Shown here: piece after piece, positions 11,672 through 35,873 of the stretch | Position numbering within the stretch: the stretch's first letter is position 1 | How the letters are laid out: each line of letters opens with the position of its first letter | Assembly: GCA_036244855.1 (NCBI GenBank) | Contig: BQKZ01000355.1 | Span: forward strand, 89,148 to 153,147 | Direction: 5' to 3' | DNA from: Temnopleurus reevesii | Taxonomy: Eukaryota; Echinodermata; Echinoidea; Temnopleuroida; Temnopleuridae | Length of the DNA: 64,000 nt | Made by a program: the position numbers and the translations under genes | The notes under the pieces: model-generated | What the model saw: only the letters and a program-made list of their open reading frames with translations | What the model was told of the DNA's origin: nothing | Databases searched by the model: none

Positions 11672-11896
11672 TCACCGGTCTGTGAACAGTGAATTCGTCC
11701 GCCCGTCGAGGGCCATAACATTACTCTGTTTCGTCTTATTTTGCGCGCTTTTCTTCTTCATATGCGGGTCCATTATTTTGAGGCAGATGAGCTTGATGAG
11801 GTCGTATATGAGTTCAATGAACTCGAAGATCGTGAGGATGGAGACACCGATCCACAGTCCGATTTGGCCGCCGAGGTCACTGATCAGGGAGTATAC
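11672..11896 (-). CDS. DEG/ENaC channel, terminal exon (TM2, pore and tail)
   Basis: Encodes the pre-TM2 loop, the second membrane helix and the cytosolic tail. The exon opens in phase 0 with VYSLISDLGGQIGLWIGVS. This holds the conserved D-x-GGQ-x-GLW block and the G-x-S selectivity-filter position (GVS here), followed by a hydrophobic helix (ILTIFEFIELIYDLI) with the acidic residues usual in TM2. The basic tail ends LDGRTNSLFTDR before TGA. The acceptor (GATTCAG/GTATAC) is good and joins in frame to the exon at 12755-12830. The family is metazoan trimeric Na+ channels of the plasma membrane. The gating stimulus (peptide, acid or force) cannot be read from this exon. The tail is tandemly copied just downstream. 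Confidence 0.93.
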   Translation of the reverse strand, partial: VYSLISDLGGQIGLWIGVSILTIFEFIELIYDLIKLICLKIMDPHMKKKSAQNKTKQSNVMALDGRTNSLFTDR

Positions 11897-12754
11897 CTGA
11901 ATCATGAAAGACAGAGAATGTGACATCATTAAATTGATTCAAACCAGCGATCTGATAGAAAATGGTCTTCCATCTCTTTTTGTTTCAATAAAATGTCAAA
12001 TCCTGTAATAGTCGCTTTTATCAAGAACAAATTAGCAACTAAGCCGACCATGATTTAAATCTCATCAATGTCATTTAATGCATTGTTAATTATCAAGTAC
12101 CTTGCTGTAAAAAATGGTGTGTTTCAGTATTTTTGCGAAATTTGTCGTAAGGTCGTACGACTAAAAATCGTGAAATGAGCACATCCGCTGGCCTTAGGGA
12201 ATGTGGTCTGCTGAAGGGCTCGGACCAGAGAGTATTAACATACTGGCGCGGACCGGTTGGATAGAGAGTCAATGGCCGGTATTCCGATAGCGAGGTTGAA
12301 GTTAACCCTGGTCTAAACCTGTGGTTTAAGTATGGAAAGCCAAAAGAGGCTTGAATGGGAAAAGAGAGCAGTTAACATAACAATTATTCATTGTGAATGA
12401 AGGTTTGGCACTTTTGGCTACCCATACTTAAACCACAGATTTAGACCAGGGTTAACTTAAACCTCGCTATCGGAATACCGGCCAATATGTTTATATATGT
12501 GACAATACGGCAATAATTCCTTGATGACTCGGTTAGAAAGTCTACCGTGTGTGATTTTGGTATAAACTCTTCAAAGCCATTAAGAATGCTTTCTTGGCTT
12601 TCAGTGACCCTTTTGAGCCATTGCACATAGACAACACTTATCACCAATTTTGGAGATTGCTGAAACGTCTTGCCAGTTTCATCTTTCCCCATTCCGGGTT
12701 ATACTTTATAAAGAACAATACGGTTGGCCATCCCTCCCATTTGAGAATACTTAC
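11897..12754 (-). other. Intron before the TM2 exon
   Basis: An 858-bp GT-AG intron of the channel gene. Apart from the palindromic MITE at 12273-12484 I see no feature. Confidence 0.8.
12273..12484. mobile_element. Palindromic MITE
   Basis: A 212-bp element inside the last channel intron, with inverted arms of about 85 bp at more than 90 percent identity. The left arm begins TGGCCGGTATTCCGATAGCG and the right arm ends in its complement; both arms contain GTTAACCCTGGTCTAAA. The loop is about 40 bp. There is no coding capacity, so it depends on a transposase elsewhere. I could not identify a clear target duplication. Confidence 0.8.
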
Positions 12755-12830
12755 GTCATAGGCTGCTGTTTGGTAAATGTGTTCGTATTGGAGATTCTCG
12801 TAGAAAACAGTCACTTTCACCACATTCCCA
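12755..12830 (-). CDS. DEG/ENaC channel, post-finger beta-strand exon
   Basis: A 76-nt exon encoding GNVVKVTVFYENLQYEHIYQ and then TAAYD. The N-x-x-KV-x-V-x-YE-x-L-x-YE pattern is the conserved strand that leads from the extracellular domain back to TM2 in DEG/ENaC proteins. The acceptor (TTTTTTTCAG/T) and donor (GAC/GTAAGT) are strong. Phase 2 in and phase 0 out fit the neighbours at 13367-13449 and 11672-11896 exactly. Confidence 0.9.
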
Positions 12831-13366
12831 CTGAAAAAAAGTAAAGAACGAAACAAAAGATAAACGAATCACGATGATCACAAGGTAAAACCGCATCATT
12901 TTGTTCATATTCTATTCAAATTGAACAGTGTTTGGTTAAATTTTGTAGCTATGAGTGCAATTTAATAATTTATGCAAAAGCGTACGCTTACTAGTAATCC
13001 TTAAAATAAACGTTATGAATGTTCAATTCATCAGAAATGGTTCTTGCGAACTTTCGTCACCGACTCAGAGTGATCTAAACTATTGTATATCATGGATACT
13101 TTTCATATTCTAAAACCATTCTGACTAATGAAGAGGGCAACAGGATTAATGCCTCAGTACACCAAACACGGCATGGCATAACGGCACGGTATTTACACAG
13201 TAGTTTGGTTATTATTTGCCAGCGCGCTCCTTCGTCATTCAAAGGGGAGAGATCACGTAAATACCGTGCATTGAAGCATTGCCGTGTTTGATGTGCCCGT
13301 AGCTTTAGACCTTGGGTCATGGCGCTTCCATTTCTAACCTACATGTATATATTCACAAGTGCTCAC

Positions 13367-13449
13367 CTGATGAAATTATCGGCACCGTCATCCTGAACTC
13401 TTTGCATCAAGTCGTCCGATATTGATTCGATGTTTTTCTGGACAGTTTC
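13367..13449 (-). CDS. DEG/ENaC channel, late ectodomain exon
   Basis: An 83-nt exon encoding ETVQKNIESISDDLMQRVQD and then DGADNFI. It opens in phase 0 after TTTTGCAG and leaves in phase 2 at CAG/GTGAGC. The AG left over plus T from the next exon makes Ser, giving an unbroken join into NVVKVTVFYEN. It matches the poorly conserved helical segment just before the post-finger strand. The exon that should precede it must end in phase 0 and is not found: the exon at 14735-14838 ends in phase 1 and would give a stop if joined directly. Confidence 0.75.
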
Positions 13450-13589
13450 CTGCAAAATGAAGAATACACCATGAAATTAAAACATATACAGTAATGATGT
13501 TTTGATAATTCTCATGCTAATATCTTTATTTTTTTGCACTTTCTATTATTTTGATATATATGTATTATGTACATCGTACAAGGATTGGA

Positions 13590-13925
13590 TGCATCATTAT
13601 GTAAAGTGTTTTGAACCTGTTTGAAATTAAGCGCTTTGTAAATCTTATGTATGTATCATGATTATCATTATTATTATTACTACAATTTTTGTTATAATTT
13701 ATTATTACTATTAGTATCACTGTTATGACTAATATTATTATCAGTTCCATTACTATTATTATTATTATTATTATTATTATCATTATTTTCAAGAAACACC
13801 TCAAAACCCATTTTTATCATTCCTAATGTAGCCGAATGTATAGGTCTTTCAAGCAAAGCTTTGTATCCTCTGGAAAAGGCGCTATATAAATACAATTATT
13901 ATTATTATTATTATTATTATGAAAA
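13590..13925. repeat. SINE tail remnants and ATT microsatellites
   Basis: Two stretches, each with a GCGCTTTGTAAAT or GCGCTATATAAAT motif followed by (ATT)n: one near 13630-13790 and one near 13875-13920. This is the typical 3' end of invertebrate tRNA-derived SINEs. Heads are not recognisable. Confidence 0.6.
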
Positions 13926-14025
13926 ACCGGAAATCTTATTTTGGTCCTTTTAAGGTTCACAGGGAGATATCAAGATGGAAAAACGCAAATAAATCAACAG
14001 TGCAGAGCCGTGATGAAAAGAATTT

Positions 14026-14620
14026 CCTTTAAGGGAAACTTCATCCAGACGTTGATGTGCTTTCAGTGGGTGGGGAAGAATACAATGATCAAACTGAAAA
14101 CTGAAATTTTGGAGCAAAATCGGACACTCCATTAAAAAGTTTTGGATTTTCAAAGTTTTGATATCCACCTCTCACGGGTTCCTCAAATTGGCAACCTATA
14201 TGCACAAAATATCTTCCAACATGGGGAACGCTCCATTCACTTCGTACACAGAATTTCACATGCTTTTGTACAAAGTATACGCAATATTACTTCTCTATTC
14301 AAGTAGAATATCGACATATTGGTTCTGCAAGCATTTTAGGATGAATCTTGCTGATATCTTATGTACTTTTCTGTAAAAGGAACAAAATTATTAAATTTTG
14401 TGTACAAAATAAATGGAGAGTTCTCCATGTTGGCAGCCATTCTGAGCCTGTACGTTGCCAATTTATGGAGTCCATTAGGGGTGAGATAAAAACTTCGAAA
14501 ATTCATGACATTCGAATGGATTGTTAGATTTTGCTCAAATTTTCACAGTTTTATCATTATATTTTTCTTCATCCACTGAGAGCACATCTATGTATGTGGG
14601 TGAAGTTCCCCTTTAAGGTT
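14026..14620. mobile_element. Large palindromic MITE (arms over 200 bp)
   Basis: The text from CTTTAAGGGAAACTTCATCC through TTGGCAACCTATATG and the AACGCTCCATTCACTT block returns inverted, ending at GTGAAGTTCCCCTTTAAG. The arms are about 220 bp with many substitutions, so the copy is old. It fills most of the intron where the missing ectodomain exons of the channel would be expected. Confidence 0.75.
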
Positions 14621-14707
14621 GGAAGTGGGGTATTATTGGGCAAAAACACGCATTCTTATTTGATGTGCCATAATTAAGTAAATATAGGGTGTACCCCTAC
14701 ATATTAT

Positions 14708-14708
14708 N
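14708..14708. other. Single-N assembly join in the channel intron
   Basis: One undetermined base, 27 bases from the palm exon. Because expected exons are missing from this intron, the N may mark a collapsed gap and not a miscalled base. Confidence 0.5.
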
Positions 14709-14734
14709 AAGAGTGTTCCGTCGATAAAACTTAC

Positions 14735-14838
14735 CATATAAAGGTCCTACTGTAGAAACAGTCAGAAGTTTCCCGAATTCACCGGAGTTGAACGTGTAGC
14801 AGTTACCGTACATGTAGTTGTAGAAATGTGAAAAATTG
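14735..14838 (-). CDS. DEG/ENaC channel, palm-domain exon
   Basis: A 104-nt exon encoding NFSHFYNYMYGNCYTFNSG and then EFGKLLTVSTVGPLY. The F-x-x-FYN-x-x-YGNCYTFNSG block is one of the most diagnostic signatures of DEG/ENaC ectodomains. It joins exon 2 (either copy) in frame: GA left over plus C makes Asp before NFSHF. The acceptor is TATTTGCAG/C and the donor TATG/GTAAGT-like (GTAAG), leaving phase 1. A partial copy lies at 15922-15998. Confidence 0.93.
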
Positions 14839-15116
14839 CTGCAAATAGAAAGGAGAAATCAAAATGTTAAAAATTAGCTCATCAAAAAATGAAATAGTGC
14901 TGAATTATAGCTAGACTTCTAAATATATTTGTCGACTTTTGGATTTCAAGTGAACTGAAAAATTCAACACATAAACAAACATACATATTTGGCTCGTGTT
15001 ACCGATAGCTATTGTATTTGAATATATATCTTGACCGCACGGACCCATTGAAAAACATTGTGTGCTGAACTGGGGTTTTAACCGTATTTGAATAAATGTA
15101 TCAAATCAAATCAAAT

Positions 15117-15416
15117 CAATGATAATATTAATAATAATAGATGCATTTTATATAGCGCACGTATCCACTCTGCTGAGTGCTCAAGGCGCTTTACATTATT
15201 ATGAATGTAAAGGCTTTAGCCCGGCAGCCATTCACGGCGCACTTGGTATTTCAAAGAATAAGTATTCCTGCCAGGTACCCATTCACCTCACCTGGGTTGA
15301 GTGCAGCACAATGTGGATGAATTTCTTGCTGAAGGAAATGGACACCATGGGTAGGATTCGAGCCTACGACACTCTAGTTGAAGGCGGGAGTCACGACCAC
15401 TACACCACGGCGCCTC
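15117..15416 (-). mobile_element. tRNA-derived SINE, family 1, full-length copy
   Basis: The same structure as the copy at 663-962: box A complement at 15397-15408, the GTGCTGCACTCAACCCAGG body, and an ATA-rich (TTA)n tail near 15119. It lies in the intron between the palm exon and the first exon-2 copy. Confidence 0.85.
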
Positions 15417-15577
15417 CAAATCAAACTTAACTTAGGTCAAAGTCATTGTCATTTAGACCAATGGTCTAACTTTCAAATAACAATGGCCCTGTCCCGGGTT
15501 ATTTTTTAGTAAATCTCCTGTTATTACTCTACCATAATTCTTCTTACAGTAGAAATATATTATTGTCCTTTCCTTAC

Positions 15578-15753
15578 TCTGGTGTACAGGGGTAGTTCTC
15601 GAAATCGCAGTCCAGCAGCATATCATCCAGTTCGTGTCCGGTTTCACTCCGGTTTTCGTACGGCGCACTACCGATAATCTCTTGGGCGAGCTCCAACTGA
15701 CTAACACGGCTGTCCAATTGCCCATAGTCTACGTTGCTCCAGTCTTGATAGCC
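15578..15753 (-). CDS. DEG/ENaC channel, exon 2, copy 1
   Basis: A 176-nt exon encoding GYQDWSNVDYGQLDSRVSQL, then a helical stretch, ENRSETGHELDDMLLDCDF, and ENYPCTP. The GH-x-x-DDMLLDC-x-F block is the conserved first-cysteine motif of the DEG/ENaC extracellular domain. It opens in phase 0 (TTTGTTCAG/GGC) and leaves in phase 2 (CCAGA/GTAAGG), so it accepts any of the three first exons and joins the palm exon at 14735-14838. The protein sequence is identical to copy 2 at 16608-16783, with about nine differences, all synonymous. Confidence 0.9.
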
Positions 15754-15839
15754 CTGAACAAAGGGAATTGAAAAATATGAAAAATGATTGATATTTCGTC
15801 TAATTGTTTTCACACACCGGTTTGGCCCTTTGTAGATAT

Positions 15840-15920
15840 TATCAATACGTCCGGTTTCACTCTAGTTTTCGTACGGTTCACTCCCGATAATCTCCTGGGC
15901 AATCGTCAGTTGACTGAGGC
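15840..15920 (-). pseudogene. Broken exon-2 copy ending at an N
   Basis: A fragment of an exon-2-like sequence with the in-frame TAG that is also present in the copy at 16874-16996. It stops abruptly at the single N at 15921, next to a palm-exon fragment. The order of the two fragments is the reverse of their order in the gene, which suggests a duplication or assembly joint. Confidence 0.7.
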
Positions 15921-15921
15921 N

Positions 15922-15998
15922 AGAAGTTTCCCGAATTCACCGGAGTTGAACGTGTAGCAGTTACCGTACATGTAATTGTAGAAATGAGAAAAATTGCT
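15922..15998 (-). pseudogene. Partial palm-exon copy next to an N
   Basis: A copy of the 5' two-thirds of the palm exon, encoding FSHFYNYMYGNCYTFNSG, with an intact acceptor (TTTCCAG/C). It breaks off at the N at 15921 before the donor. It starts exactly at the N, at the base corresponding to 14764, so it may continue in unassembled sequence. Confidence 0.7.
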
Positions 15999-16261
15999 GG
16001 AAATAGAGATAAGAAATCAAAATATTGTAAATGAGATTTAAAAAAAAGATACACCAATGCAAATTTATTTCTAGTCTATATATACTCCAAAATAAGATGA
16101 CTTTTGGATCTATAAACTATCTTCATGATCTTCAAGAACATGAAGTTCATGATCTTAAAAACTCAGCACAGAAAAAGACAAATGTAAGAATAGACACCCT
16201 CGTTTTGTTTACATTTTGTTTACCGGCAAGACAGACAGAATGATGGATTGGATTTCTCAAT

Positions 16262-16545
16262 TGTATTTAATAATAATATTGCATAGCATTTATATCGCAC
16301 TTTTTATGCGCTGTGCATTATTAACCGGCCATAGCAGGGTTACAATCACTGCATTCAAATAATTCAAGGATTTTTTTCCTACCGGTACCCATTCATTTCA
16401 ACTGGGTTGAGTGCAGCACAATGTGGATGAATTTCCTGGTGAGGAAAATACACGCCATGAGCAGGTTTCTAACCTACGACCTGACGAGCTTATTGTACGA
16501 AGGGCGTGAGTCAGAATCACTTCACCACGACACCTCCACAAAGTT
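16262..16545 (-). mobile_element. tRNA-derived SINE, family 1, degenerate
   Basis: Shares the AACTGGGTTGAGTGCAGCAC segment and the head region with the other family members, but the middle and tail have diverged strongly. It occupies the same relative position as the SINE at 15117-15416 within the duplicated block. Confidence 0.7.
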
Positions 16546-16607
16546 TGCAAATTCTCGACTATTATTACCCTACCAATCGAGATACTCATTTAGTTGTCTC
16601 TTCTTAC

Positions 16608-16783
16608 TCTGGGGTACAGGGGTAATTCTCAAAATCACAGTCCAGCAGCATATCATCCAGTTCGTGTCCGGTTTCACTCCGGTTTTCGTACGGCGCACTA
16701 CCGATAATCTCTTGGGCGAGCTCCAACTGACTGACGCGGCTGTCCAACTGCCCATAGTCAACGTTGCTCCAGTCTTGGTAGCC
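16608..16783 (-). CDS. DEG/ENaC channel, exon 2, copy 2
   Basis: A 176-nt exon with the same protein as copy 1, including GHELDDMLLDC and the final ENYPCTP, and equally good splice sites (TCGTCCAG/GGC and CCAGA/GTAAGA). If both copies were in one transcript, the joint would shift frame (176 is not divisible by three), so they can only be mutually exclusive or belong to separate genes. Conservation of the protein with only silent changes argues that both have been under selection, unless they are two alleles of a very polymorphic locus. Confidence 0.88.
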
Positions 16784-16873
16784 CTGGACGAAGAGAATTG
16801 AACAAGATGAAAAATGATTGATATTTTTTCTAATTGTTTTCACACACCGGTTTGGCCCTGTGTAGATATTATC

Positions 16874-16996
16874 AATATGTCTGGTTTCACTCTAGTTTTC
16901 GTACGGCTCACTCCCGATAATCTCCTGGGCAATCTCCAGTTGACTGAGGCGGCTGTCCAACTGCCCAAAGTCTACGTTGCCCCAGCCTTGGTAGCA
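16874..16996 (-). pseudogene. Exon-2-like pseudoexon with stop
   Basis: Encodes CYQGWGNVDFGQLDSRLSQL and then EIAQEIIGSEPYEN followed by TAG. The acceptor is preserved, but the DDMLLDC half is lost. It is clearly an old tandem copy of exon 2. Confidence 0.75.
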
Positions 16997-17079
16997 CTGG
17001 ACAAAGAGAAAGATTTTAAAAAGGAATTGAGATGTTGTTTAATAGTTTTGTCATGTCGATTTGTCCCTTTCTAAATCAT

Positions 17080-17397
17080 TGTCGTGTCCGGTTTCATTCC
17101 GGTTTTTAAACGGCTCATTCCCGGTTTTTAAACGGCGCAATTCCGCTGTTCAGTTGGCGATAGTCGACGTTGACCAATTAATGACTGAATTTAGTGAAAT
17201 AATAAAGGGAAAAACAGTAATAATTCATTTGTTGACCAATCATAAATCTGATATCGCTTCTGGGCTTCCGGTATCACCCGGGTTCGATCCGGTTTCCATA
17301 CGGTGCACATCCGATAATCTCTTGCGCGAGCTCCAACTGACATACTGACACGATTATCCAGCTGCCCATAGTTGACGTTGCTCCAGTCCTGGTAGCC
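17080..17397 (-). pseudogene. Two further decayed exon-2 copies
   Basis: The copy ending at 17397 starts GYQDWSNVNYGQLDNRVS after ATCCAG, then has a 4-nt insertion that shifts frame, and loses its 3' half. Remnants of another copy (CCGGTTTTTAAACGG, repeated, with a GTCGACGTTGACC end) lie at 17080-17175. With the neighbours this makes at least six exon-2-like sequences within 1.8 kb. Confidence 0.65.
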
Positions 17398-19396
17398 CTG
17401 GATGAAGGGAATTGAACACCCTAAGCATTAAAAGAAACTTTGGGGGACATTTTCACGGGTCCCTAATAAAAACCATCACATTTTCACATTTTTTCTAAGA
17501 GTGCAATGCTATACTTTATGTTCGGAGATGCACATAACATTGCTGTCTATATATCCTCTTTTTAAAATGGGATTTTTAATAACCAATTGATACCATTCAA
17601 AAACCAACTTGATCAGCCACTTTCATTCTATTGAGATCCTTATAAATGTACCGCATGTGTGCAGTAAACAAGAACATCAGGCAGAGTTAACATGCAATGA
17701 ATTCAAGCGTTGCTATTTCAATTCATGAATTCACGTCTTATTCCATAAGCTGTTATGAGGGAAAGATTCCAAAATATATATTCTTTCAATTTCAACCCAC
17801 GCCCCGGCTTTGTGCGATATGCCCAGGGCTGAATGATGACGTTAGAAATCGCGTACAATGCATGCTATGCTACATGGTTCATAAGAATTGGAAATCTGCT
17901 TAAAATTATTCAATCAAACTTGTGACATTTCGTTAATGAATAAAACAAAATTTCATTATAACCATAACACGCAGGTCCGTAGCTGAGAATTTTTAGTGGA
18001 ATGGTACAGAGGGATATGGATGCAAACTTGGACAAAGCGGACTCTTTTGTGACTACACTGCCCACACTCACACACTGCAGAGCTATCAGTGTACCCCACT
18101 ACAGTATGTTTCTATTGCACCTCGCCATCTGCGATCTTCCTCTCTTCAAACGACGTCAATATACTCAATGTATGTACTTTCAATGTGAAGAATAATCCTT
18201 GTTGCATTTCTCACCCCCCCCCTTCCCCATGTGGTTGTGCATTTTTTCTTCAAGTCTTTAGATATGTCATATTTGTGTACTGATATTCTTTTTTTTAATG
18301 TATTTAGTGTATTTTTCCATGTAAATATCATGTTTGCTTATAAATGTTGCTGTTTATGTATTTCTAATGTGGTCTGGACGCGTTTGAAAATCAGCCGATT
18401 GCTGAATAGGGCAATCTAACCCGTAAGCGCGATGGAGAAAAGAATAAAATAAATAAAATTCATATAAAAATGTATGCCTGTTTGGAACTTGCATGCAGGG
18501 ACTGACTCAGTAGGATTTATTTGCATGTGAGTGTATAAATGTAATTCCCCCCCCCAAAAAAAAAAAAAGTTCGCCGGGAAGCTCTATCTAAGCGTAATGA
18601 TTGAATGATCATAGAGTGACACGACCCATTAGAAAAAAAACATACTTATTCCCCATTCACCCCTGTTTCACGTTTGTACCAACAATAAATTCGTCCGCCT
18701 ACTTAAAATCGCTCGTAAATGTTTGATCCATAAACTTCTAAAATAGCATTTCATAATGAAAATCGGAAAATGCTCAAATTATTGGAAATGGGATAGGCGA
18801 ACAGACTTCCGAAAAATAGGCTAGGCCTATGTAATTAAAAAACAGCCCCCTACTTTCATTAATGAGACTGTTACTCAATTTACGTTTTTGTCATCTTATT
18901 CATCTTATTCGACCTTGGGAGATTTAACATATCCTTTTCATTCCAGAATAAATATGTAATGAGAATGTCATTCAAGTCATTCATTAATAGTCATCATCAA
19001 CGAGGGCTTGTCCGTGGCTTCACATTTCCATGGCAACATGAAACAAACAACATTCCCAGCGTTCCATCAGCGTCCAATTAAAAAAATATAACTATTGCAC
19101 CACCATCCATGATGTCAAGGTTGGATCAAAAATTAAACAGTGAAGTAAACAAAAAATCAATTTGAGGCTCCTGAGCACATTTTTTCTCAATGGAACCCTT
19201 TTACAGGGACTGTAAGATAGGGGGGGGGGGATGGGCTCCATCCCCCAATTTTTTTTTGTCCAGTTAATCCTTGCAAGCCGGTGGGAGTGTATACAAATGG
19301 TGATAAAAATCCCCACCTGTGACGCCCCCTTTTTAAAAACGTTTTGCGGTTGTCGTTTTACTCGATCATTAAAAATACGGGACCAAAAGACTTAAC
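17398..19396. other. Intron sequence, no recognised feature
   Basis: Part of the roughly 8 kb interval between the exon-2 array and the first TM1 exon. Short homopolymer runs (C/A near 18547-18568) are the only notable items. No exon signal is seen. Confidence 0.5.
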
Positions 19397-19558
19397 ACGG
19401 AGTTTAAGCAATGAGTACGGAAGGGCCGATCAGGACGTTATTTCTAAAGCGCGTTGAAATCTAGCGGGTGTTCTCAACCTTAGCGGACCGCTAGATTTCC
19501 CCGCGCTTGAGAAATAACGTCCTGTTCGGCCCTTCCGTACTCATTGCTTAAACTCCGT
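19397..19558. mobile_element. Palindromic MITE
   Basis: A 162-bp palindrome with arms of nearly 60 bp that are almost identical. The left arm is ACGGAGTTTAAGCAATGAGT, continuing with ACGGAAGGGCCGATCAGGAC; the right arm is its complement. The loop centres on GCTAGATTTCCCC-like text. It is non-coding. Confidence 0.8.
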
Positions 19559-20630: not shown

Positions 20631-20631
20631 T

Positions 20632-21815: not shown

Positions 21816-21932
21816 TAACTAATTAACGTGCTTTACCATTCACCATAATTAGGCACTCTATAGAAGTCTGGTTCTACCACTTTCAACCTTACATCCTACA
21901 CCTCCTCTGGCGCCGGTTTCATTTTAAAGTAT

Positions 21933-24900: not shown

Positions 24901-25314
24901 CGTCGTAGAATTTGAAGTTATGTTATATCTCTCCGGCACAACATATTCCATCAGCGCTTCCAAATGTTCCTCATCATTCGTAAACTGTAACAGATCATCC
25001 ACCTTCGACACCGGCAAGGGATTCAAATTACAGATGGTGATCGCGGGAAGATTTATGGAACGATGTTGGACGTATTCGACGTTGACGTTGACGCCGTATA
25101 GCGCGTAAGTTTTGATGATGGTGGTCAACTGCCAGACGACAACGCCCAGGCCTGCGGTGAAGAGCGCGGCCCAGATCAGTCGGCGATAGAGGTTCGAAGC
25201 TCGTTGGATGTTGGGGATACCGTGCGCTCCTGTACTCGCCATCCGGCTCCCCACTAGGAATAGGATACTGTCTTCCTCATCTTTTGACATTTTGAAATCA
25301 AGTTTGTTCTCCAT
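24901..25314 (-). CDS. DEG/ENaC channel, alternative first exon C (TM1)
   Basis: Encodes about 138 residues from MENKLDFKMS. In order: a short cytosolic N-terminus with the gating HG motif (STGAHGIPNI); TM1 (LIWAALFTAGLGVVVWQL); and the post-TM1 signature LPAITICNLNPLPVSK. The start of the ectodomain follows, with two N-x-S/T sites (NIT, NST). The donor ACG/GTGAAT leaves in phase 0, which fits exon 2 at 16608-16783 or 15578-15753. It is close to first exon B (most residues identical through TM1). A homologous upstream stretch in the same frame ends in a stop just before this Met, so I chose MENK as the start. Confidence 0.88.
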
Positions 25315-27480: not shown

Positions 27481-27489
27481 GACCATTAA

Positions 27490-27722
27490 CATCCTAACCA
27501 TGGCGTCAATTTCCTTCAGCAAGAAATTTATCCACACTGTGCTGCACTCAACCCAGGTGAGGTGAATGGGTACCTGGCAGAATATTTATTCCTTGAAATG
27601 CAAAGTGCGCTGGTGGCTGCCGGGCTAAAGCCAGGGTAATAATAATGTAAGGCGCCTTGGGCACTCAGCAATGAGAGTGGATACGTGCGCTATATAAATT
27701 GAATATATTATTATCATTATTC
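27490..27722 (+). mobile_element. tRNA-derived SINE, family 1, plus orientation
   Basis: Contains TTCCTTCAGCAAGAAATTTA, GTGCTGCACTCAACCCAGG, CGGGCTAAAGCCAGGG, GAGTGGATACGTGCGCTAT and a short (ATT)n end. The tRNA head is mostly lost or unrecognisable. It lies between first exons C and B. Confidence 0.8.
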
Positions 27723-27835
27723 TTATTAACATGTGTACAATGGGGAAAATGTGTGCAAAAGAATATATCATCTACAGCTTTACGAGACTATCTGCTTGTT
27801 TCTATCGATCTGAAACATCACTTCATTTAAGCCTG

Positions 27836-28062
27836 CGTTACACCTTTGCGTTTTTAGCCTGCGTCGGCCGATCATTTTTTAGAAATTAAAAACGCTCCCT
27901 TGACGCTGTCATGCGGTGGACTGACGCCCGTCGTACGCTCGATGAGCGCAAGCCGAACGTCAGTCCACCGTCTGATCTGCGTATGCTGTCCGTCAAGGGA
28001 GCGTTTTTAATTTCCAAACGCTGGGCCGACCCAAGCTGAAAGCGCGATGGTGTGAGTCGGCC
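27836..28062. mobile_element. Palindromic MITE, CACACCTTTGCGTT family
   Basis: An inverted-repeat element with GCCTGCGTCGGCC, AATTAAAAACGCTCCCTTGA and GGTGGACTGACG in the left arm and complements in the right arm; the outer ends resemble CACACC-TTTGCGTTT. Relatives lie at 41991-42112, 45939-46186 and, decayed, 48845-49030. Confidence 0.75.
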
Positions 28063-29147
28063 GAAACGCGTGAGAGTGTAAAACGAGCGGGAGAAGAAAA
28101 AAAATCACCATAACTTCGGAGTGAGCTGCTCCGATTGGCTTACCTGCAAAAAGCACGGTCAATATTGATAGTGATTATATGGCTCATCGGATAATTACCA
28201 CTCACAATCCCTCACCCGCACTTGGCTCCATAAGCCCGCATGTCACCATGGTAACCATCAAAACAGAATTATTTACTACCCTCTTCACACACGGACGTTT
28301 TGATTTAAAAAGTCAATACGTTGATTTATAATGTCTGATATATTTCATTTGATATAAAGTACGCAGTAAATTTCTTCTTTGTTATTCCTATCCAGAGGGG
28401 AAATGTGTTTGGGACCTTACGATTCTGAGTAAAGTTTCCTGACTCTATTTTGTACAGGTATTTGGTATTAGGTAAAAAAAAATTACACTTATAAACGCGA
28501 TTAGCCACTTCGTCTATAATACATGTCATTAGCCGCTCACCCCACCCCACTTCCTGTAAATGAGTATTTCTTGGTTTTTATGGGCTTTCCTGTCATGGAA
28601 TATGCAATCGACAAATCCCTGCAAACGTACACTGCACAAAAACATGGGTGTACAAATTTGAGCATATTGGTCCCATTTTTTAAAAACCTTCTACACGTGC
28701 TCAAAAGGTTAATGAATGGCTCTCTGAAAAGGCATGAAATGGCTGTTTAAGGGAACGAGTGCAAACAAGACCTTCAAAACTAACTTTATGAGAAAAGAGC
28801 TGGGGGAAAAAAACGCAGAGAGTCGCAACAAGAGCCGGGCACAAAAGCAGGGGCAAGAACCACTCCTCCACCCCCCCCCCCGTGATAAGTCCATACATGC
28901 GATTTCATTAGAACCGCAATCTCAGCCGCTCAAAGCCCCTTGTACACGTAATGTCCAAATCCCCCCCCCCAAAAAAAAAATGCCCCCCGTAGTGTGTAGT
29001 GATCGAAAAAGGCCCCACCATAAGGGGTGGGGATTCAGTAAGGTTGCTCCTCATTGTAAGAGGGAGGGGGGGNTCTTCTGGTTGCCCATACTCACTCGCT
29101 CACGACTTCTTTGAAGACGGCACTCACCAATTTCACAATACGGTTAG
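28063..29147. other. Non-coding spacer with homopolymer runs and one N
   Basis: No gene is seen. C- and A-rich runs occur near 28870-28880 and 28964-28980, with a single N at 29073 inside a G-run. The open frames in this stretch pass through these runs and are not credible. Confidence 0.45.
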
Positions 29148-29582
29148 GCCTATTTACCATGTACAAAGTATTAGGGTACAAAGTTGTACCCCAAGGGGTA
29201 AAATTGATTTGAACATTAGCTGAGCATTATACTAGAGATCAAAGTTTTAACCCCTCCCCACCCGAAAATTCAAATTTGTAACCAAAGATTCAAAATTGTA
29301 CCTCATGGCTGTGAAACAATTTTTTTAACCGAGGGGAACAGCAGTATACCCGAGGCTGGAGACGATTCAAGGATTCAAAGTTGTACCCCCCAAAATAAAT
29401 TCATAGTTGTAACAAAAAGGTTCAAAAGTGCACTCCATGCTGAGGCACAAAGTTGAACGTGGTGGATCCATGCTGGGCTCAAAATATCAAATCGTAGAAT
29501 ATCACACGTTTGGGGCAAAAGTTTGAACCCTCTAAGGGTCAACTGGTGTCACGCCCAAGGGTACACATGTATACCCTAATCT
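29148..29582. mobile_element. GGGTACAA-type repeat element with inverted ends
   Basis: Begins TATTAGGGTACAAAGTTGTA and ends GTATACCCTAATCTA. Within it, TTCAAAGTTGTACCCC and close variants recur in many short units. Related sequence lies at 37255-37450 and 62030-62200. It abuts the 3' side of first exon B. Confidence 0.55.
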
Positions 29583-29751
29583 ATCTGTGTGAACAGTGTG
29601 TCCAGCTCGGACACATCCGCCACGGTTGTCTCAGCGTTGTGACGTATAGTCTGTCTTGGGGCGACGTCTGTCCATGATTTGGCTTTCAGGAAAGATGTTG
29701 GCCCAAGACAGACTATGTCACAAATATAGAAAATAGACAAGAATCTGTTAC

Positions 29752-30327
29752 CCTAGCCGCATGTTTCATCGCTGTCATGTTGTAATCGGGGAAGTGTAGC
29801 GGTACAACCTCCCTCAACATCGTCGCCTCCTCTCCGGTCCGCGCAAGGAGTGCCAACTCGGCGATCTTCGACACAGGAATCGGGTTCAAGTTGCAGATGG
29901 TGATCGCGGGCAGGTCTATGGCACGATGTCGGATGTACTCGACGTTGACATTCACACCGTACCCAAAGAATGTGTTCAAGATGGTGGTCAACTGCCAGAT
30001 GACCACGCCCAGGCCTGCGGTGAAAAGCGTCGCCCAGATGAGACGGCGGTAGAGGTTCGAAGCACGTTGGATGTTGGGGATACCGTGCGCTCCTGTACTC
30101 GCCATACGGCTCCCCACAAGGAATAAGATACTGTCCTCCTCGCTCTTGGATATCTTGAAGTCTGGGGTTTTCTCCATGACCTTGGTTGATCCTTCGTTGT
30201 CGAATGATTGGAATGCTCTAACGGGTGTGCTAGAGGCATCGTACCACGCTTCTTTACGGCTGTCGTCCATTGTATCGTCACGAACTAATGCAATTGGAAC
30301 AGGAATTGCACTCTGAAAGTTGTTCAC
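29752..30327 (-). CDS. DEG/ENaC channel, alternative first exon B (TM1)
   Basis: Encodes up to 192 residues, with Met at MNNFQSAIPV or, 19 residues later, at MDDSRKEAW. The second is favoured because exon C has a homologous Met there. The cytosolic part includes RAFQSFDNEG and the HG motif (GAHGIPNI). TM1 is LIWATLFTAGLGVVIWQL; the signature is LPAITICNLNPIPVSK; the ectodomain begin carries an NMT glycosylation site. The donor AGG/GTAACA leaves in phase 0, so it could splice to either exon-2 copy. On the minus strand two CCAAT boxes lie about 20-40 bp upstream of the first Met, a weak promoter hint. A CAG acceptor-like site within the exon (AACTTTCAG) leaves open an upstream leader. Confidence 0.88.
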
Positions 30328-31250
30328 ATCAGGCAGTTGTTGTCAAACGTTGATTGGTTTCATTGGGCTCGAGAAAGGCCTTCTTCAGAGTAGGGTAAAA
30401 GTGTAACGTCACAAACTCGTGTATTTATGACAGGAAAGCCACTCACATAATGTTGTTTCTGTTAATCGTTGATAAGCTTTAACAGGCTTGAATGAGGACT
30501 TTGGGTGAGCTAGCTGGCTAAATCGGAGGGCTTGGTAGAACCCTGAATCATAATTTTTTATCGCTGATTTATCACATCGTCCACATTTCATCCTCCATTT
30601 CTTTGCGCCATTGGTATAATTGCACTGGATGAACAGTTAATTTTTTTCTCGGTCCAATGTGTTATTGACTAACAAATCTGAGAAGGGATAAAATCATTGA
30701 CTGGTAATTTCATGGCACTTCGAAGTTTCTCCACTCCAGGAAGGGTCAAAGAATTTTTTTGAAAAAAAGTTCAAGAAAGAAAAGCAGCATCATTATTCTT
30801 GATATGCACGACCAGTAGGCAGGTAGGGGCATCCATCAGATGCATTAGTCTTTGGCATTTTCAATTACCACATCTAAAAACTTTCCTTGGAACAGTTCAA
30901 ACAACATTTTTACTTCAATAAAAAATCTTAAGATATGACGATCCCGTCATCTGCTATTAAAACCTGGGCACCAAAAGGCTCAAGCCTGGAGATGTAATCG
31001 TAATGGTGCTCGAATGACAATATAAATCAACACTTCTGTTAAGAGGACTCTGTCGAACAACCGAATACAGCTTATCGGTTTACACCCAATCAAAAGCAAA
31101 TTTATTCTGAACTTGTTGATCGCTTTCTGCTCAACCATTCAACTGATCGAGCAGACAAGTGACGTATACTCCAAGCGTGAAACAGAAATAGCATCAATTT
31201 TATATCATCATGAAATCATAATGCCCTTAATTGAAGCAGTCGTTATTGTG
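30328..31250. other. No feature recognised
   Basis: Non-coding sequence 5' of first exon B. It should contain the promoter if the exon has its own, but I see no reliable core element apart from the CCAAT pair. Confidence 0.4.
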
Positions 31251-31251
31251 N

Positions 31252-31376
31252 TAACATAAAGCTTTCCTATCGATCGTACGATTGATATCAATCGCTAGTC
31301 TATGGGAAATCATGTACTAAATACTTGCGATTGATCGCAATCTGTTTATGTTACAGGCCTCTGTTACAGGACACTG
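31252..31376. mobile_element. Small palindromic MITE (GTAACATA family)
   Basis: Starts at an N (31251) with TAACATAAAG and ends with TTATGTTACAGGCC. The centre carries GATTGATATCAATCGC and CTATGG text, as in the copy at 2784-2912. Confidence 0.55.
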
Positions 31377-31500
31377 TAAATGTAAAAATGGAACTTTTCG
31401 CATTTGTGCATTTTCTTTATTTTGTTATTTACAGTGATAACAGTCACAATATGAGGCAAGTCAGTTCCGATTTCAATTGCAATATACATATATACCACAC

Positions 31501-31633
31501 CAGGGGCCTGCAACATAAAAGATACAATAGAACTTACAATAAATATTAATCGTAAGTCTATGGCAAAGTGTGTACCATAGAGATACGATACATTTTGAAT
31601 TAATTGTACCTCTTTTGTGTTACATGCCCTTGA
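31501..31633. mobile_element. Small palindromic MITE (GTAACATA family), second nearby copy
   Basis: Ends CAGGGGCCTGCAACATAAAA and TTTTGTGTTACATGCCCTTG. The central TCTATGGCAAAG and ACCATAGAGA are mirrored. Confidence 0.6.
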
Positions 31634-32189
31634 CCGTGGCGTGTGCCTAAAAATCCAAGCTCTTTAAAACAGTCACAAATTGACATGGGTTGATTTCTGC
31701 GCTGCCGAAAATGTTCCACTAAATATTTATAAGATAAACGAAGCTATGATATGGTTGCGAATTAGAAATTGAACTAATTTACTAATAAAAAATATGTAAA
31801 GAAGATATTAAATAAAATCCTCAAAATGAATGAGGAGATAACAATAAAGTAGCTTCATTTCGTTTTCACACCTTCATCTTCCGTTTGGAGTTGCATAACT
31901 CGCATCTTTTTCGCGCCTGGTGCCAAATGGCAGATATTAAAAATCATACATGTTTGCACAAAAAAAAGTAATGTCAAGCAACATTATAGAGAATAGATCT
32001 GAGCTCCCAGCTCTGATTGCAAAAGTTGTTTGCTAGGAAGCTCTTCATTAATTAGCAGAACCATAATTAAACTCGAGCGTTATTGCCGTGGGCGTATTTG
32101 TCAAAGTTTGTTTAAATATGTGGAGCCTGGTGCCTGGCGTCATTACCAGATCACGTGACCGCAATGTGTGGACCAATCGGCGGTCAGTA

Positions 32190-32451
32190 CACTGCAAAAA
32201 CGCTGGTGTTAAATTTAACACCAACCGGAATCTATATATGACAACACCAGAAAAGTGTTAAAATAACACCAGTTTGGAATCCATTTGATATATTTCAATA
32301 CCAACTGGTGTTGTTTAAGGCCTTGAACAACACCAGTCGGTGTTTAAATACATTGATTTGATTCCAAACTGGTGTTATTTTTACACTTTTCTGGTGTTGT
32401 ACGATATAGATTCCGGTTGGTGTTGAATTTAACACCAGCGTTTTTGCAGGG
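32190..32451. mobile_element. Palindromic MITE with CACTGCAAAAA ends
   Basis: A 262-bp palindrome with arms of about 105 bp. The left end CACTGCAAAAACGCTGGTGT is mirrored at the right end as AACACCAGCGTTTTTGCAG. GTGTTA/TAACAC units are themselves repeated inside each arm, so it is a palindrome built from small palindromes. GTA-like bases flank both sides. It is non-coding. Confidence 0.8.
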
Positions 32452-33041
32452 TATACTGTGAGTGACATGTTTGCTTTTATATAGCCTTGTTTGGCCGATT
32501 ATGTGATTGGGTCATCATCACTGAGAGAAAAAAATGACCAGTAAAAACAGTAATATTAATATATGATGTGTGTAAAGCAACATCGCCCTTTTGTTGAAAT
32601 GCTCAAGGTGCTTAAATGTGAAGTTATACATTAAAATCGATATATCTGAAGCCTTTAAATGTTTTCTAGAATGTTCAACAGCTCTTTATACATTTGTTAT
32701 CGATCCAATGAATGTGTTATTGCACCTTAAGAATAAATTTTGAGGCTTTTAAATATGGACAAATAGGTTCCAATTGTTGAATTGCCCTTTTCTATGACTA
32801 TATGTCTTTATAACTGTAGTTTAGGATCATATTGATATTGATAATATCTTTCTGTTTGAATTCAAACGTAGCATTTTAAATGCTTTACAAACAAACATTG
32901 ACAACCTTGATCGACAAAGTACAAATGATCTAGGTATATGTAGTTGTAAAAACTGCAATAAAGGACGGATGAGGCAGCAGAAAAAAACCCTAACTCTATG
33001 CATAGAACGCGAAACGTCAGAGAGGGAGGGGGGGGGGGGGG
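32452..33041. other. No feature recognised, ends in a G-run
   Basis: AT-rich non-coding sequence ending in a purine and G-run that borders the assembly gap. Confidence 0.4.
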
Positions 33042-33181
33042 NNNNNNNNNNNNNNNNNNNNNNNNNNNNNNNNNNNNNNNNNNNNNNNNNNNNNNNNNNN
33101 NNNNNNNNNNNNNNNNNNNNNNNNNNNNNNNNNNNNNNNNNNNNNNNNNNNNNNNNNNNNNNNNNNNNNNNNNNNNNNNNN
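33042..33181. other. Assembly gap, 140 N
   Basis: A run of N bordered by poly-G, so sequencing or assembly probably failed in low-complexity DNA. Confidence 0.95.
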
Positions 33182-33674
33182 CAGAAAGGTTGAGAATTAC
33201 GGATCTACGGGTAATTTATACACTTCATCATGATCATCTCAAGGTCAAGAAATATCAAATTAATACCTTCATTGTTGAATTCTATCAAACATTCACTTTT
33301 ATTACGTCAAAGTAGAAGAATGCAACTCTTATGAACGGTTATTCATTTCGAAAAAGTTGATACAGTTCCATGAAGTGTAAGTGTGATTGATCGAAAGTCC
33401 GCGCGTAATAGAAACTATATACGAGTACGAACGAAAAAAGGGTGAACACACCACGCTTTCCCCTATATTTAAAAGGCTGAATATTGATAGTTTCTGCTTA
33501 ATATGTTTTATTTTGTTATTGGGTGTTTGTATATCATAACTATATGCCATTACGATTCATGCCTGTCCTTATAACTCCGTTGCGCACCTGACTTAAAAAT
33601 GCTCAGCTTTCACTGTCATAAAACTATTTTTGTCACAAAACACGATATAACCTACTTTCGATAAATTAAGTGGA

Positions 33675-33905
33675 AAACCAGTTCAATGGTCCTTTGTAAT
33701 GCTATTCAAATCGGAACCGGCTTACAATTGTTGTGTCCGCACAAAATACACGGCGTACGGTTCTATTGTCTGTGACCAACTTAACTTTTCGGAAATAGTT
33801 TATATCGTGTTAAAACTTCTACGACTGATGGTCTGTAAAACACATTTTGGTGAGGTTTCTCGGCTTGAGCGAACAAAACTTGTCACGCCCGTTCGGAAAA
33901 TATTT
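33675..33905 (+). repeat. Dispersed repeat, also in an acyl-CoA synthetase intron
   Basis: Contains TCCTTTGTAATGCTATTC, CGGAACCGGCTTA, GTGTCCGCA and GGAAATAGTTTATA. The same series occurs in the opposite orientation at about 56545-56855, so it is a dispersed element of unknown type. The short open frame is not supported as a gene. Confidence 0.65.
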
Positions 33906-33968
33906 TGACCATTTGAAAATTAGTAAAGTTTGTCGGAGGCGTACTGTCTGAGCTGAAATTATGTGAGT

Positions 33969-34972
33969 TTCGACACCCATCGTCAAAATACACGATGAGT
34001 CTCTACACCCATTTCGAGAACTCACAATGAGTCTCGAGAACAAACAGTGAGTTTCGAGACCCATCTTGAGAACACACGATGAGTCTCCAGACCCATTTCG
34101 AGAACTCACAATGAATCTCGAGAACACACGATGAGTCTCGAGACCCATTTTGAAAACTCACAATGAGTCTCGAGAACAAACAGTGAGTCTCGAGGCCCAT
34201 CTTGAGAACAAACAATGAGTCTCGAGACCCATCTTGAGAACACACGATGAGTCTTGAAACCCATCGTAAGAACACACGATGAGTCCAGACCCATCGTGAG
34301 AACACACGTCAGATGTATCCTAAAACATTATCACATGATTTCAGGACATTCCTCCTAAATATTTTTACGTACGCCAAAATTTCAGTCGAAATGCAAGCTT
34401 TTCACACGATGGGTCTGGAGACTCATCGTGTGTTCTCAAGATGGGTCTCGAGACTCACTGTTTGTTCTCAAGATGCATCGTGAGCTCTTGAAATGGGTCT
34501 CGAGACTCATTGTTTGTTCTCACGATGGGTCTCCAGACCCATCGTGTGAAAAGCGTGCATTTCGACTGAAATTTTGGCGTACGTAAAAATATTTAGGAGG
34601 AATGTCCTGAAATCATGTGAAAATGTTTTAGGATACATCTGACGTGTGTTCTCACGATGGGTCTGGACTCATCGTGTGTTCTTACGATGGGTTTCAAGAC
34701 TCATCGTGTGTTCTCAAGATGGGTCTTGAGACTCACTGTTTGTTCTCGAGACTCATTGTGAATTCTCAAAATGGGTCTCGAAACTCATTGTTCGTTCTAA
34801 CGATGAGTCTCGAGACCCATCTTGAGAACACACGATGTGTCTGGAGACCCCTCTTGAGAACACACGTTGATTCTCATGACACATCTAGAGAACGCTCTCA
34901 CATAAGAGTCTGGAGATCCATCTTGAGAGCACACGATAAGTCTCAAGACCCATCGTGAGAACACGCGATGAG
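33969..34972. mobile_element. Fold-back element made of 32-bp repeats
   Basis: A 1-kb symmetric structure. Outer arrays (33969-34307 and 34649-34972) are tandem copies of a 32-bp unit with GAGTCTCGAGACCCATCTTG followed by AGAACACACGAT; the right array is mostly inverted relative to the left. Between them lie two inverted unique arms (34308-34403 and 34549-34648, sharing ATTTCGACTGAAATTTTGGC and TACGTAAAAATATTTAGGAG) around a central array. This is the architecture of fold-back transposons such as the TU elements of sea urchins. The many short open frames are read-through of the 32-bp unit and not proteins. Confidence 0.85.
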
Positions 34973-35364
34973 GGGTTGAGCTCGAATTTAGCGACCCTTT
35001 TCGCCGAATTTGGCGCCCCCTTAGATGTAACCCGGAGGGAGGGGGGAGGGGCTTGTTCCCCCAAAGCCGCCCCACGGTGCGCACATGGATTTAAAATGGC
35101 CCTTTCGTAGCGACAAACGTCATAATTGCACGACACCATTTTTTGGTTCCGAAGAGTGGCCAAGGTAGCATCTTCCATTGAAATTGGACCCTCCCTCACA
35201 TGCCGTGCGACATATCTCTCCGCGCTACTCGTTCCGGCAAGAGATTCTGCACTCTTTGGGCAGTTTGTACTTTTTAACACGGCCTGTTCGGCAGTAAAAA
35301 CATTATCCATGACCCCATCTCATGGCTATAACGGGCAACTTAAAAGCAACAGTTTCTGACTTAC
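34973..35364. other. G/C-rich repeat fragment and intron next to first exon A
   Basis: At 34973-35090 there is a fragment related to the G/C-rich element at 1232-1595 (GGCGCC, CCGGAGGGAGG and GGTGCGCAC texts). The rest is the start of the intron after first exon A. An open minus-strand frame here matches no family that I know. Confidence 0.4.
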
Positions 35365-35873
35365 CCTCTCCGTGGACGACGAAACTGTTGTCGGACTACT
35401 CGTAGAATTGACCCCCGGTGTCGTCACATTATCGCCATCATACGGCACACCCACGGCATCGGCAAACTCTTTGGAATACGCACTCGCCCTCGAGCTCGAA
35501 TACGGGTTCAAATTGCACATGGTGATCGCTGGAAATCGTAAAGTCTTAGCGTGGTTGTACTCGACGTGGACGATGACGTTGAAGTCGGTGTAGCTGTCGA
35601 TGATCTGGACCATCTGCCAGAAGAAGACGGAGATGCCTCCGACGAAGAGGAACGACCACGCGAGACGTCTGGTCAGCGAGTGCGCGCGGGCGATGTTGGG
35701 TATGCCATGCGCGCCAGTGTTCTGGACCGCGGAGCTTATCAGAAGGTACGCGTTCAGGTCCTTCCGGTCCTGGTCGTCTCCGATGGACCTGGATCTCCTC
35801 CGGCCGGGTCCCTGGGAGTCCATGTCATCGTTTCGGTATTTGTCGTGGCGTAAACCTTTCCTCCCGTCCATCT
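35365..35873 (-). CDS. DEG/ENaC channel, alternative first or second exon A (TM1)
   Basis: Encodes about 169 residues. From a possible start MDGRKGLRHDKY it has a basic cytosolic region (GPGRRRSRS), the HG motif (NTGAHGIPNI) and TM1 (LAWSFLFVGGISVFFWQM). The signature LRFPAITMCNLNPYSSS follows, then a Ser/Thr-rich ectodomain start with N-x-S/T sites. It is more distant from exons B and C than they are from each other. The donor GAGAGG/GTAAGT leaves in phase 0, like the others. The acceptor TATCTTACAG/AG lies two bases before the ATG; a phase-1 leader exon ending in G would read through as Glu-Met-Asp. Three such leaders lie at 39198-40839. Confidence 0.88.

Follow-up and report, generated by a model that had tools for sequence, protein, structure and literature searches.

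The analysed stretch of Temnopleurus reevesii DNA (64,000 nucleotides, referred to as the window) probably contains an echinoid DEG/ENaC gene in which two TM1-coding exons, A and B, are used alternatively, each excluding the other, ahead of a common 3' half. A third TM1-coding exon, C, is probably a further duplicate of B. Judged from sequence comparisons, each TM1 exon would join exon 2 in phase 0 and continue from there into one palm/finger/thumb/TM2 half. What would vary with the exon chosen is the cytoplasmic N-terminus, HG motif included, together with TM1 and the beginning of the ectodomain; TM2 and the GVS filter would stay the same. Exons A and B are presumably used in T. reevesii as in other urchins, exon C may be used too, and either promoter use or splicing from a common 5' exon could decide between them. 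Mixed trimers would be the result.

Exons of the T. reevesii locus

Exon A (35365..35871) comprised 169 codons from its ATG and ended at the donor AGG/gtaagt at 35365; exon B (29752..30270) comprised 173 codons from its ATG, with the donor AGG/gtaaca at 29752; and exon C (24901..25314) comprised 138 codons from an internal ATG, with the donor ACG/gtgaat at 24901. The original prediction of three paralogous exons on one strand, each leaving in phase 0, was borne out: all three were on the minus strand, encoded an HG motif (TGAHGIPN), TM1 and a (F/L)PAIT(M/I)CN signature, and exited in phase 0 at these donors. The HG motif, TM1 and FPAxTxCN-type signature placed the N-terminal part in the DEG/ENaC family. 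Matches to Pfam ASC (PF00858) had E-values of 6.2e-20 for exon A, 9.9e-19 for exon C and 5.8e-49 for a joined query containing exon B; at 9.9e-19 or better, a chance or wrong-frame origin of the TM1 exons was ruled out. Among 3447 GT sites the donors ranked at the 99.7th (A), 97.4th (C), and 92.8th (B) percentiles.

A candidate 3' splice site (tatcttacag/AG, first base 35873) lay immediately 5' of the exon A ATG, so that, next to the originally inferred one transcription unit per first exon, as in UGT1, the locus may have a 5' exon in common. Among 3119 AG sites scored with an approximate matrix, the candidate 3' splice sites ranked at the 91.5th (A), 77.9th (B), and 30.9th (C) percentiles. 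The weak candidate of exon B was at 30312, and the reading frame was open that far. In exon C the ancestral start at 25404 was followed by 29 codons and then by an in-frame TAA abutting the present ATG, which left 30 residues instead of 61 ahead of the HG motif. Compared with exon B, exon C had a dN of 0.225, a dS of 0.79, and a dN/dS of about 0.28 (Fisher p 3e-8 from rounded counts), and it looks to be under constraint though its ancestral start is lost.

All downstream exons were on the minus strand. Exon 2 began in phase 0, as originally noted, and was found as two intact copies, a (16608..16783) and b (15578..15753), encoding the same protein with nine synonymous and no non-synonymous differences. 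Degenerate exon-2-like copies were located at 17397-17278, 17123-17082, and 16995-16878 (span 16878..17397), and a fourth exon-2 fragment at 15920-15849. Exon 3 copy a (15922..15996) was cut by a single-N assembly join at 15921, while copy b (14735..14838), encoding the palm sequence beginning NFSHFYNYMYGNCYTFNSG, ended in phase 1. These exons differed from the original description: exon 2 was intact twice, and exon 3 was present in two copies. Three further exons were compared with Lytechinus variegatus protein P0001: the exon for ETVQKNIESISDDLMQRVQDDGADNFI (13367..13449; starting in phase 0; 63% identical to residues 437-463), the exon for GNVVKVTVFYENLQYEHIYQTAAYD (12755..12830; 72% identical to residues 462-490), and the terminal exon (11672..11896; 79-80% identical to residues 490-563). 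The terminal exon encoded TM2, the GVS filter motif, the C-terminal tail, and the stop; the TM2 and G-x-S filter of a DEG/ENaC channel were read in GLWIGVSILTIFE (11896-11672). This was the single TM2 exon of the window, as had been claimed, and the second TM2 on the contig (C355:36880-36749) belonged to the next tandem gene.

In the 3' flank the terminal-exon tail recurred as three decayed copies, at 11585-11527, 11297-11215, and 10885-10823 (minus strand; span 10823..11585). Single exons, namely exon 2 and the tail of the terminal exon, were often duplicated at this locus, and extra first exons would fit its habit. Tandem Repeats Finder reported two ATT arrays and a 22-base unit with 2.3 copies in window positions 10000-18000, and no tandem repeat there accounted for the exon-2 copies. 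A tblastn search with 12 DEG/ENaC proteins (E<=1) covering 17500-24890, 25420-29740, 30330-35350, and 35900-52000 gave five matches, the best with E of 0.058 and none convincing, and so no convincing palm or TM2 remnants between the TM1 exons.

Isoform models and trees

Predicted database models from other urchins contained the same alternatives. In L. variegatus, P0001 (isoform X2, B type) and P0003 (isoform X3, A type) were identical from the first exon 2 residue through to their C-termini (389 residues), and their records named a contig of equal size. In Strongylocentrotus purpuratus, P0004 (isoform X4, B type) and P0011 (isoform X2, A type) shared 276 identical residues to their ends, beginning one residue before the first residue of exon 2; both ended in a frameshifted tail without TM2, and the shared part was consequently shown only to the thumb. 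P0011 extended upstream past the point matching the exon A ATG. The Diadema models P0005 (A type) and P0058 were on two contigs and had 265 residues in common from the exon 1/exon 2 border; P0058 (805 aa) contained A and B within one model, not as alternatives. At least two TM1 modules on an identical remainder were thus present in the L. variegatus and S. purpuratus models, and in T. reevesii this arrangement is read from exon homology and phase only. The predicted shared 3' end accordingly gained support for A and B, from the isoforms of two urchins and from the Diadema pair; because of the assembly joins, the use of C and a single-copy 3' half are putative in T. reevesii. Four proteins were listed in a search restricted to the B-type first exon of P0001: the B-type P0001, P0002, and P0004, plus a distantly related protein from Amphiura. 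There was no C-type module among the urchin matches listed.

In two trees, exon A clustered with the first-exon parts of P0003 (Lytechinus) and P0011 (Strongylocentrotus), and in one of them exon B clustered with P0001, P0002, and P0004. The B and C types, including that of Diadema, formed one group in both trees (support 100/99 and 100/100), with the Diadema B module on a long branch in each. The A types, again including that of Diadema, were on the other side of the trees; this group was not exclusive, as the first exon of P0008, which represents the neighbouring gene, fell inside it. The A/B pair is, on these trees, old, because the A and B groups were separate and each contained Diadema. 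Exon C appears closest to B (support 81/75 in one tree); the pairing was left open in the smaller tree, so C may predate T. reevesii.

In a tree of 30 proteins, the gene fell outside the ASIC subfamily, within a clade of 14 ambulacrarian proteins (99/97). The ASIC3 pair, the sole vertebrate ASIC included, clustered with Antedon and Lineus (100/100), and orthology of the urchin gene to ASIC was unsupported by this tree.

Assembly joins and alternative readings

The locus as assembled was not intact. The finger and thumb exons (168 residues; P0001 residues about 269-436) were missing at a single-N join at 14708; they were absent from the window, and a search of the assembly gave none with orthologue-level identity. 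This cysteine-rich region was present in the orthologues P0001-P0005. A complete gene within the window was rejected, since joining the exons present broke the frame after exon 3, which ends in phase 1 ahead of an exon (13449) starting in phase 0. The join at 15921 jumped from within exon 3 to within a degenerate exon 2; further joins were located at 29073 and 31251. The exon 2-3 units around it had a synonymous divergence of 0.32 (9/34 sites) and introns only 63% identical, and on these values the duplication resembles a second gene or an exon copy more than it does alleles. With the finger/thumb exons missing at 14708 as well, the locus may include another copy of the gene that is partly hidden.

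Finger, thumb, and TM2 matches at C355:36.7-51.6 kb were considered as the missing exons and rejected, as they were closer to L. pictus P0008 than to P0001. Across seven exons, identity was 45-83% to P0008 and 39-68% to P0001, with P0008 the better match in all seven (by a margin of only 0.6 points in one). The finger exon was 68% identical to P0001, the same value as that of P0008 and lower than those of the S. purpuratus (93%) and Diadema (84%) orthologues. These matches were therefore assigned to the next tandem gene, the 5' half of which falls in a 37.5-kb N run. Elsewhere in the genome, contig C144 had four TM1, three palm, and two TM2 DEG/ENaC matches listed, mostly alternating; the first two TM1 matches adjoined in that list, and a finger-type match lay between them in another search.

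A tandem gene array hidden by the fragmented assembly would give each TM1 exon (or C as against A and B) private exons from exon 2 to TM2, most of them lost in unsized one-N joins. Duplicated exons 2 and 3 at 15921, with identical protein, this level of dS, and poorly alignable introns, point that way, as do the gap at 14708, the arrays on C144, and the next gene on the same contig, itself such a neighbour. However, two other urchins have A and B as isoform models whose 3' parts are identical, no second TM2 at the gene's identity level was found in the assembly (the next best, at 67%, being the neighbouring gene), and the stretches between A, B, and C held no convincing exon remnants; such an array is considered improbable. 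The exon 2-3 duplication could instead be an artefact in which two haplotypes were placed side by side at a scaffold join, which would leave one gene with a single exon 2 and a single exon 3 and be compatible with mutually exclusive exons. The duplicated units are collinear and directly adjacent across the one-N join, and another join in the window, at 61688, also has abutting duplicates (81-92% identity in three stretches). Synonymous divergence is only 0.066 in that pair, however, far from the value at 15921 with its dissimilar introns, and false duplication at 15921 seems rather doubtful. The 61688 pair, in which 10 of 102 residues differ, may itself be paralogous.

Two readings bear on how the TM1 exons are used. 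As a version of the mutually exclusive arrangement, A and B may be internal exons that follow one common untranslated 5' exon, and failure of exclusion would yield an in-frame A+B message with two TM1 modules. The candidate 3' splice site of exon A, the upstream run of P0011 across that point, the open frame of exon B to 30312 in the phase that A would deliver, and the A+B model P0058 are all consistent with this; the candidate 3' splice sites of B and C are weak, and P0058 may be an annotation artefact. This reading is somewhat less likely than not. Exon C may also be a decaying B copy present in no message, a view given somewhat less than even weight. Its in-frame TAA, unconvincing 3' splice site, and absence from the four proteins listed for the P0001 first exon suggest decay, but 138 open codons, an intact HG motif, TM1 and signature, a donor at the 97th percentile, and the dN/dS against B argue for retention.

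For the gene with mutually exclusive TM1 exons, a broader history can be proposed with some reserve: an independent and growing echinoid TM1-exon cassette in a non-ASIC gene with a constant pore half, whose two modules would predate the split of Diadema from the T. reevesii/Lytechinus/Strongylocentrotus lineage and whose third would have arisen by exon duplication. Failed exclusion could then give two TM1 modules in series, as P0058 reads, and trimers could mix TM1s around one kind of filter.

Comparison with known systems

A promoter for each variable exon is the hallmark of UGT1 and the clustered protocadherins. These resemble the urchin gene in placing several homologous variable 5' exons ahead of a constant 3' part; they differ in that another exon may precede exon A and that only two or three variable exons are present here. 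If the proposed arrangement is right, the DEG/ENaC family acquired the ASIC1/ASIC2-type exchange of N-terminus and TM1 over an unchanging pore at least two times, with differing junctions, which would mark the N-terminus plus TM1 as an evolvable module. The isoforms would then be natural chimeras, with the same TM2 and different TM1, for the role of TM1 in gating, trafficking, and selectivity. A caution for automatic annotation would follow as well, since names such as 'degenerin deg-1-like' and 'sodium channel subunit gamma-like' may label opposite ends of a single urchin gene.

Among the closest parallels is the orthologous gene, for which the L. variegatus (P0001/P0003) and S. purpuratus (P0004/P0011) isoform models show matching A/B alternatives that switch at the same junction. 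This urchin gene was not described in the titles and abstract openings of the papers found on sea urchin or echinoderm ENaC, degenerin, ASIC, and alternative or mutually exclusive exons. Contrary to the original remark that no DEG/ENaC gene was known to be described this way, vertebrate ASIC1 and ASIC2 are already known for swapped TM1 modules. For ASIC2 (ACCN1), one gene yields ASIC2a and ASIC2b through alternative 5' coding parts on a common remainder, and the variable part is, as in the urchin gene, the N-terminus, TM1, and ectodomain start (PMC4967927, PMC8410034). The isoform-specific part of ASIC2 is 185 (2a) or 236 (2b) residues long. In an alignment that takes the PDB chain count as native numbering, ASIC2 residue 185 lies some two residues beyond the urchin exon 2/3 border, which would place the urchin switch point one exon earlier. 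ASIC2 has two modules, whereas the urchin gene has two supported and a third possible, and the urchin gene lies outside the ASIC clade in the tree with ASIC3 as sole vertebrate ASIC. ASIC1, the gene of ASIC1a and ASIC1b, likewise belongs to a different DEG/ENaC branch; ASIC1b is described as Ca2+-impermeable (PMC5405051). TM1 swapping apparently evolved separately in urchins from the vertebrate ASICs, and what is new here is the non-ASIC echinoid lineage, the earlier junction, and perhaps the third module.

DEG/ENaC exons and the incomplete locus

Three paralogous exons on the minus strand each carried a TGAHGIPN HG motif, one TM1, the (F/L)PAIT(M/I)CN signature and a phase 0 exit, as the original prediction held: exon A (ATG 35871, end 35365), exon B (ATG 30270, end 29752) and exon C (ATG 25314, end 24901). 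All belonged to the DEG/ENaC (amiloride-sensitive sodium channel) family, supported by Pfam ASC matches (E = 6.2e-20 for A, 9.9e-19 for C and 5.8e-49 for the conceptual protein containing B). The closest protein matches of the conceptual protein were from sea urchins. On the same strand, 3' of A, B and C, were two intact copies of exon 2 (16783-16608 and 15753-15578), exon 3 (14838-14735) with a cut copy (15996-15922), two small exons (13449-13367 and 12830-12755) and a terminal TM2 exon (11896-11672) with the GLWIGVS filter. By eye, a short motif around gggtctcgagactcatcgtgtgttctcaaga was repeated many times (uncounted) between A and B at 33819-34958.

The observation was real and the locus was incomplete. 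Because exon 3 exits in phase 1 and its successor in the assembly begins in phase 0, joining the assembled exons gives no protein. Residues 269-436 of P0001, the 563-aa orthologue from Lytechinus variegatus, had no counterpart in the window. When the 558-Mb assembly was searched in six frames (30 matches; 47 candidates scored), this region returned weaker matches only, the best (64%) on the next tandem gene; in the same search identity was 79-89% for the intact exon 2, exon 3 and TM2 exons, 70% for the small exon at 12830 and 46-61% for the three first exons. The finger exon was conserved between P0001 and proteins of Strongylocentrotus purpuratus (P0004, 93%) and Diadema (P0005, 84%); P0001 and the match on the next gene agreed at 68%. 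A single N at 14708 occupied the expected place of the missing exons. At the single N at 15921 the sequence leaps from mid-exon 3 to the interior of a degenerate exon 2, and this position is therefore an assembly join too. Exon B was isolated on a 2.2-kb piece with single Ns on either side (29073 and 31251). Given the missing residues and these joins, the predicted count of a single TM2 exon and a single intact palm exon reflects an incomplete assembly.

The next tandem DEG/ENaC gene, closest to L. pictus P0008, lay downstream of the window on the same (minus) strand (C355:36749-51576 of G000, in the contig's own coordinates; loci L012-L014). Its 5' half fell inside a 37.5-kb N run (C355 51632-89147) ending at the window start. 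Arrays of a 174-bp unit with decayed tails of the TM2 exon followed this gene's last exon, and several decayed copies of its finger exon were also present.

The common 3' half in predicted models from other urchins

Searches with the conceptual protein (57 proteins) and with L. variegatus P0003 (66 proteins) gave 104 distinct proteins in total, which were compared in pairs for exact common stretches. Stretches of at least 30 residues occurred in 29 pairs and stretches of more than 200 residues in three pairs, all three starting at the exon 1/exon 2 border. In L. variegatus, P0001, a B-type start annotated as gamma-like isoform X2, and P0003, an A-type start annotated as deg-1-like isoform X3, were identical over their last 389 residues. 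In S. purpuratus, the B-type gamma-2 isoform X4 (P0004, XP_011678054.1) and the A-type isoform X2 (P0011, XP_011678046.1) matched exactly over their last 276 residues, starting one residue ahead of the border. Diadema P0005 (A type) and P0058 shared 265 identical residues from the border. The record lists a same-size contig for P0001 and P0003; P0004 and P0011 were under one product name, and P0005 and P0058 were on two different contigs. The isoform records of all three genera are predicted models, and such models are normally RNA-seq-backed. For A and B only, this orthologue evidence supported the proposal that alternative TM1 exons are spliced to one common 3' end.

Two observations stand against this simple reading. 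P0004 and P0011 both finish in a frameshifted tail without TM2, possibly a truncated isoform or an annotation artefact. This tail, LPFNKTSNRYQMT, seems to be the counterpart of the window's exon 13449-13367 read in the +1 frame. Also, P0058 (Diadema antillarum, 805 aa) has an A-type start followed by a B-type one, and only then the common part. Upstream of exon B in the window, the reading frame was open as far as a weak candidate 3' splice site at 30312, in the phase delivered by A, so an A-B fusion of this kind could be readable here too. Alternative use of A and B can be compatible with a false haplotype duplication of exons 2-3, with a shared 5' exon and with C as a decaying copy of B.

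Duplications and the history of the first exons

The units flanking 15921 were collinear. Copies of exon 2 had 9 synonymous and 0 non-synonymous differences (dS 0.32), those of exon 3 had 2 and 0, and the intron aligned at 352 of 557 positions (240-261 of 592-600 in five shuffled controls). The yardstick was the single-N join at 61688, the one other place in the window where duplicates abut such a join; within 3 kb of the joins at 14708, 29073 and 31251 no duplicates were seen at E 1e-10. Either side of 61688, on the plus strand, was an AMP-binding (fatty-acid-transporter-like) last exon (60234-61686 and 62198-63624), its copies differing at 10 of 102 residues (dN/dS near 0.6). These duplicates had 81-92% identity over three stretches including non-coding sequence, and a dS of 0.066. 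Because the exon 2-3 units diverge more than this pair, a real duplication is likelier than two alleles; given the small counts and the gap, both readings stand. If the units are two genes, the second is partly hidden.

The minus strand also had degenerate or partial exon-2 copies (17397-17278, 17123-17082, 16995-16878 and 15920-15849), and the tail of the terminal exon recurred three times in decayed form between 11585 and 10823, so single-exon duplication is frequent at this locus. A non-LTR-type retrotransposon (3357-6368, minus strand) encoded reverse transcriptase and endonuclease domains in a 1003-codon frame; a 319-codon frame immediately upstream (7717-8676) had no match in Pfam.

A tree built from 21 first-exon parts placed the six B/C rows, that of Diadema included, in one group (100/99) and the five A rows on the other side from B/C in 200 of 200 bootstraps. 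In this tree exon A was immediately outside Lytechinus and Strongylocentrotus (fork 88/76), nearer to them than Diadema was. Both sides were at 100/100 in a 10-row tree. The Diadema B module was a long branch; its pairwise identity was 40-55% with B/C types and 31-37% with A types. As Diadema modules fall with both groups, the A/B pair is, by these trees, older than the split of Diadema from the T. reevesii/Lytechinus/Strongylocentrotus lineage. In the 21-row tree the neighbouring gene's first exon (P0008) landed among the A rows (91/95), and it was again next to A in the 10-row tree; B did not group with it. The A and B modules of one gene may have different sources. A search confined to the P0001 B-type first exon gave four proteins: the three known B types and a distant Amphiura protein.

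Exon C was nearest to B (69-70%). The two paired in the 21-row tree (81/75) and were unresolved in the 10-row tree, leaving the age of C uncertain. Between them dN was 0.225 and dS 0.79 (Fisher p 3e-8 on rounded counts), a pairwise value which argues that both were constrained most of the time and is no proof for each. In exon C the ancestral start is followed after 29 codons by an in-frame TAA, immediately ahead of the present ATG; the candidate 3' splice site of this exon is poor.

Proposed working and comparison with ASIC1 and ASIC2

Most likely, a message would open with exon A or exon B, and perhaps with C, before running on into exon 2 and the common half. Either promoters or exclusive splicing after a shared 5' exon could set the choice, and both readings stand. 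A fair candidate 3' splice site directly precedes the ATG of exon A (91.5th percentile of 3119 AG sites, approximate matrix), and P0011 has additional N-terminal residues upstream of the point matching the exon A start. The predicted subunits would differ in N-terminus, TM1 and proximal ectodomain, with TM2 constant.

The statement that no DEG/ENaC gene described this way was known fails against ASIC1 and ASIC2. In passages of the sources concerned, the first third differs among ASIC1 variants as well (PMC11339754), and Ca2+ impermeability is ascribed to ASIC1b (PMC5405051). Chimeras of ASIC2 are reported to show that surface trafficking and the response to protons depend critically on TM1 plus the 17 residues after it (PMC4967927), so the swapped part is one that matters. 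By alignment, ASIC2 residue 185 (chain count taken as native numbering) lies about two residues past the urchin exon 2/3 border; the urchin switch point is one exon earlier than that of ASIC2. In a 30-protein tree with weak deep branches, the urchin gene fell within an ambulacrarian clade of 14 proteins (99/97), and the ASIC3 pair belonged to a separate clade (100/100). This separation suggests that the likeness to ASIC1 and ASIC2 is one of working principle, of independent origin, and not of ASIC membership.
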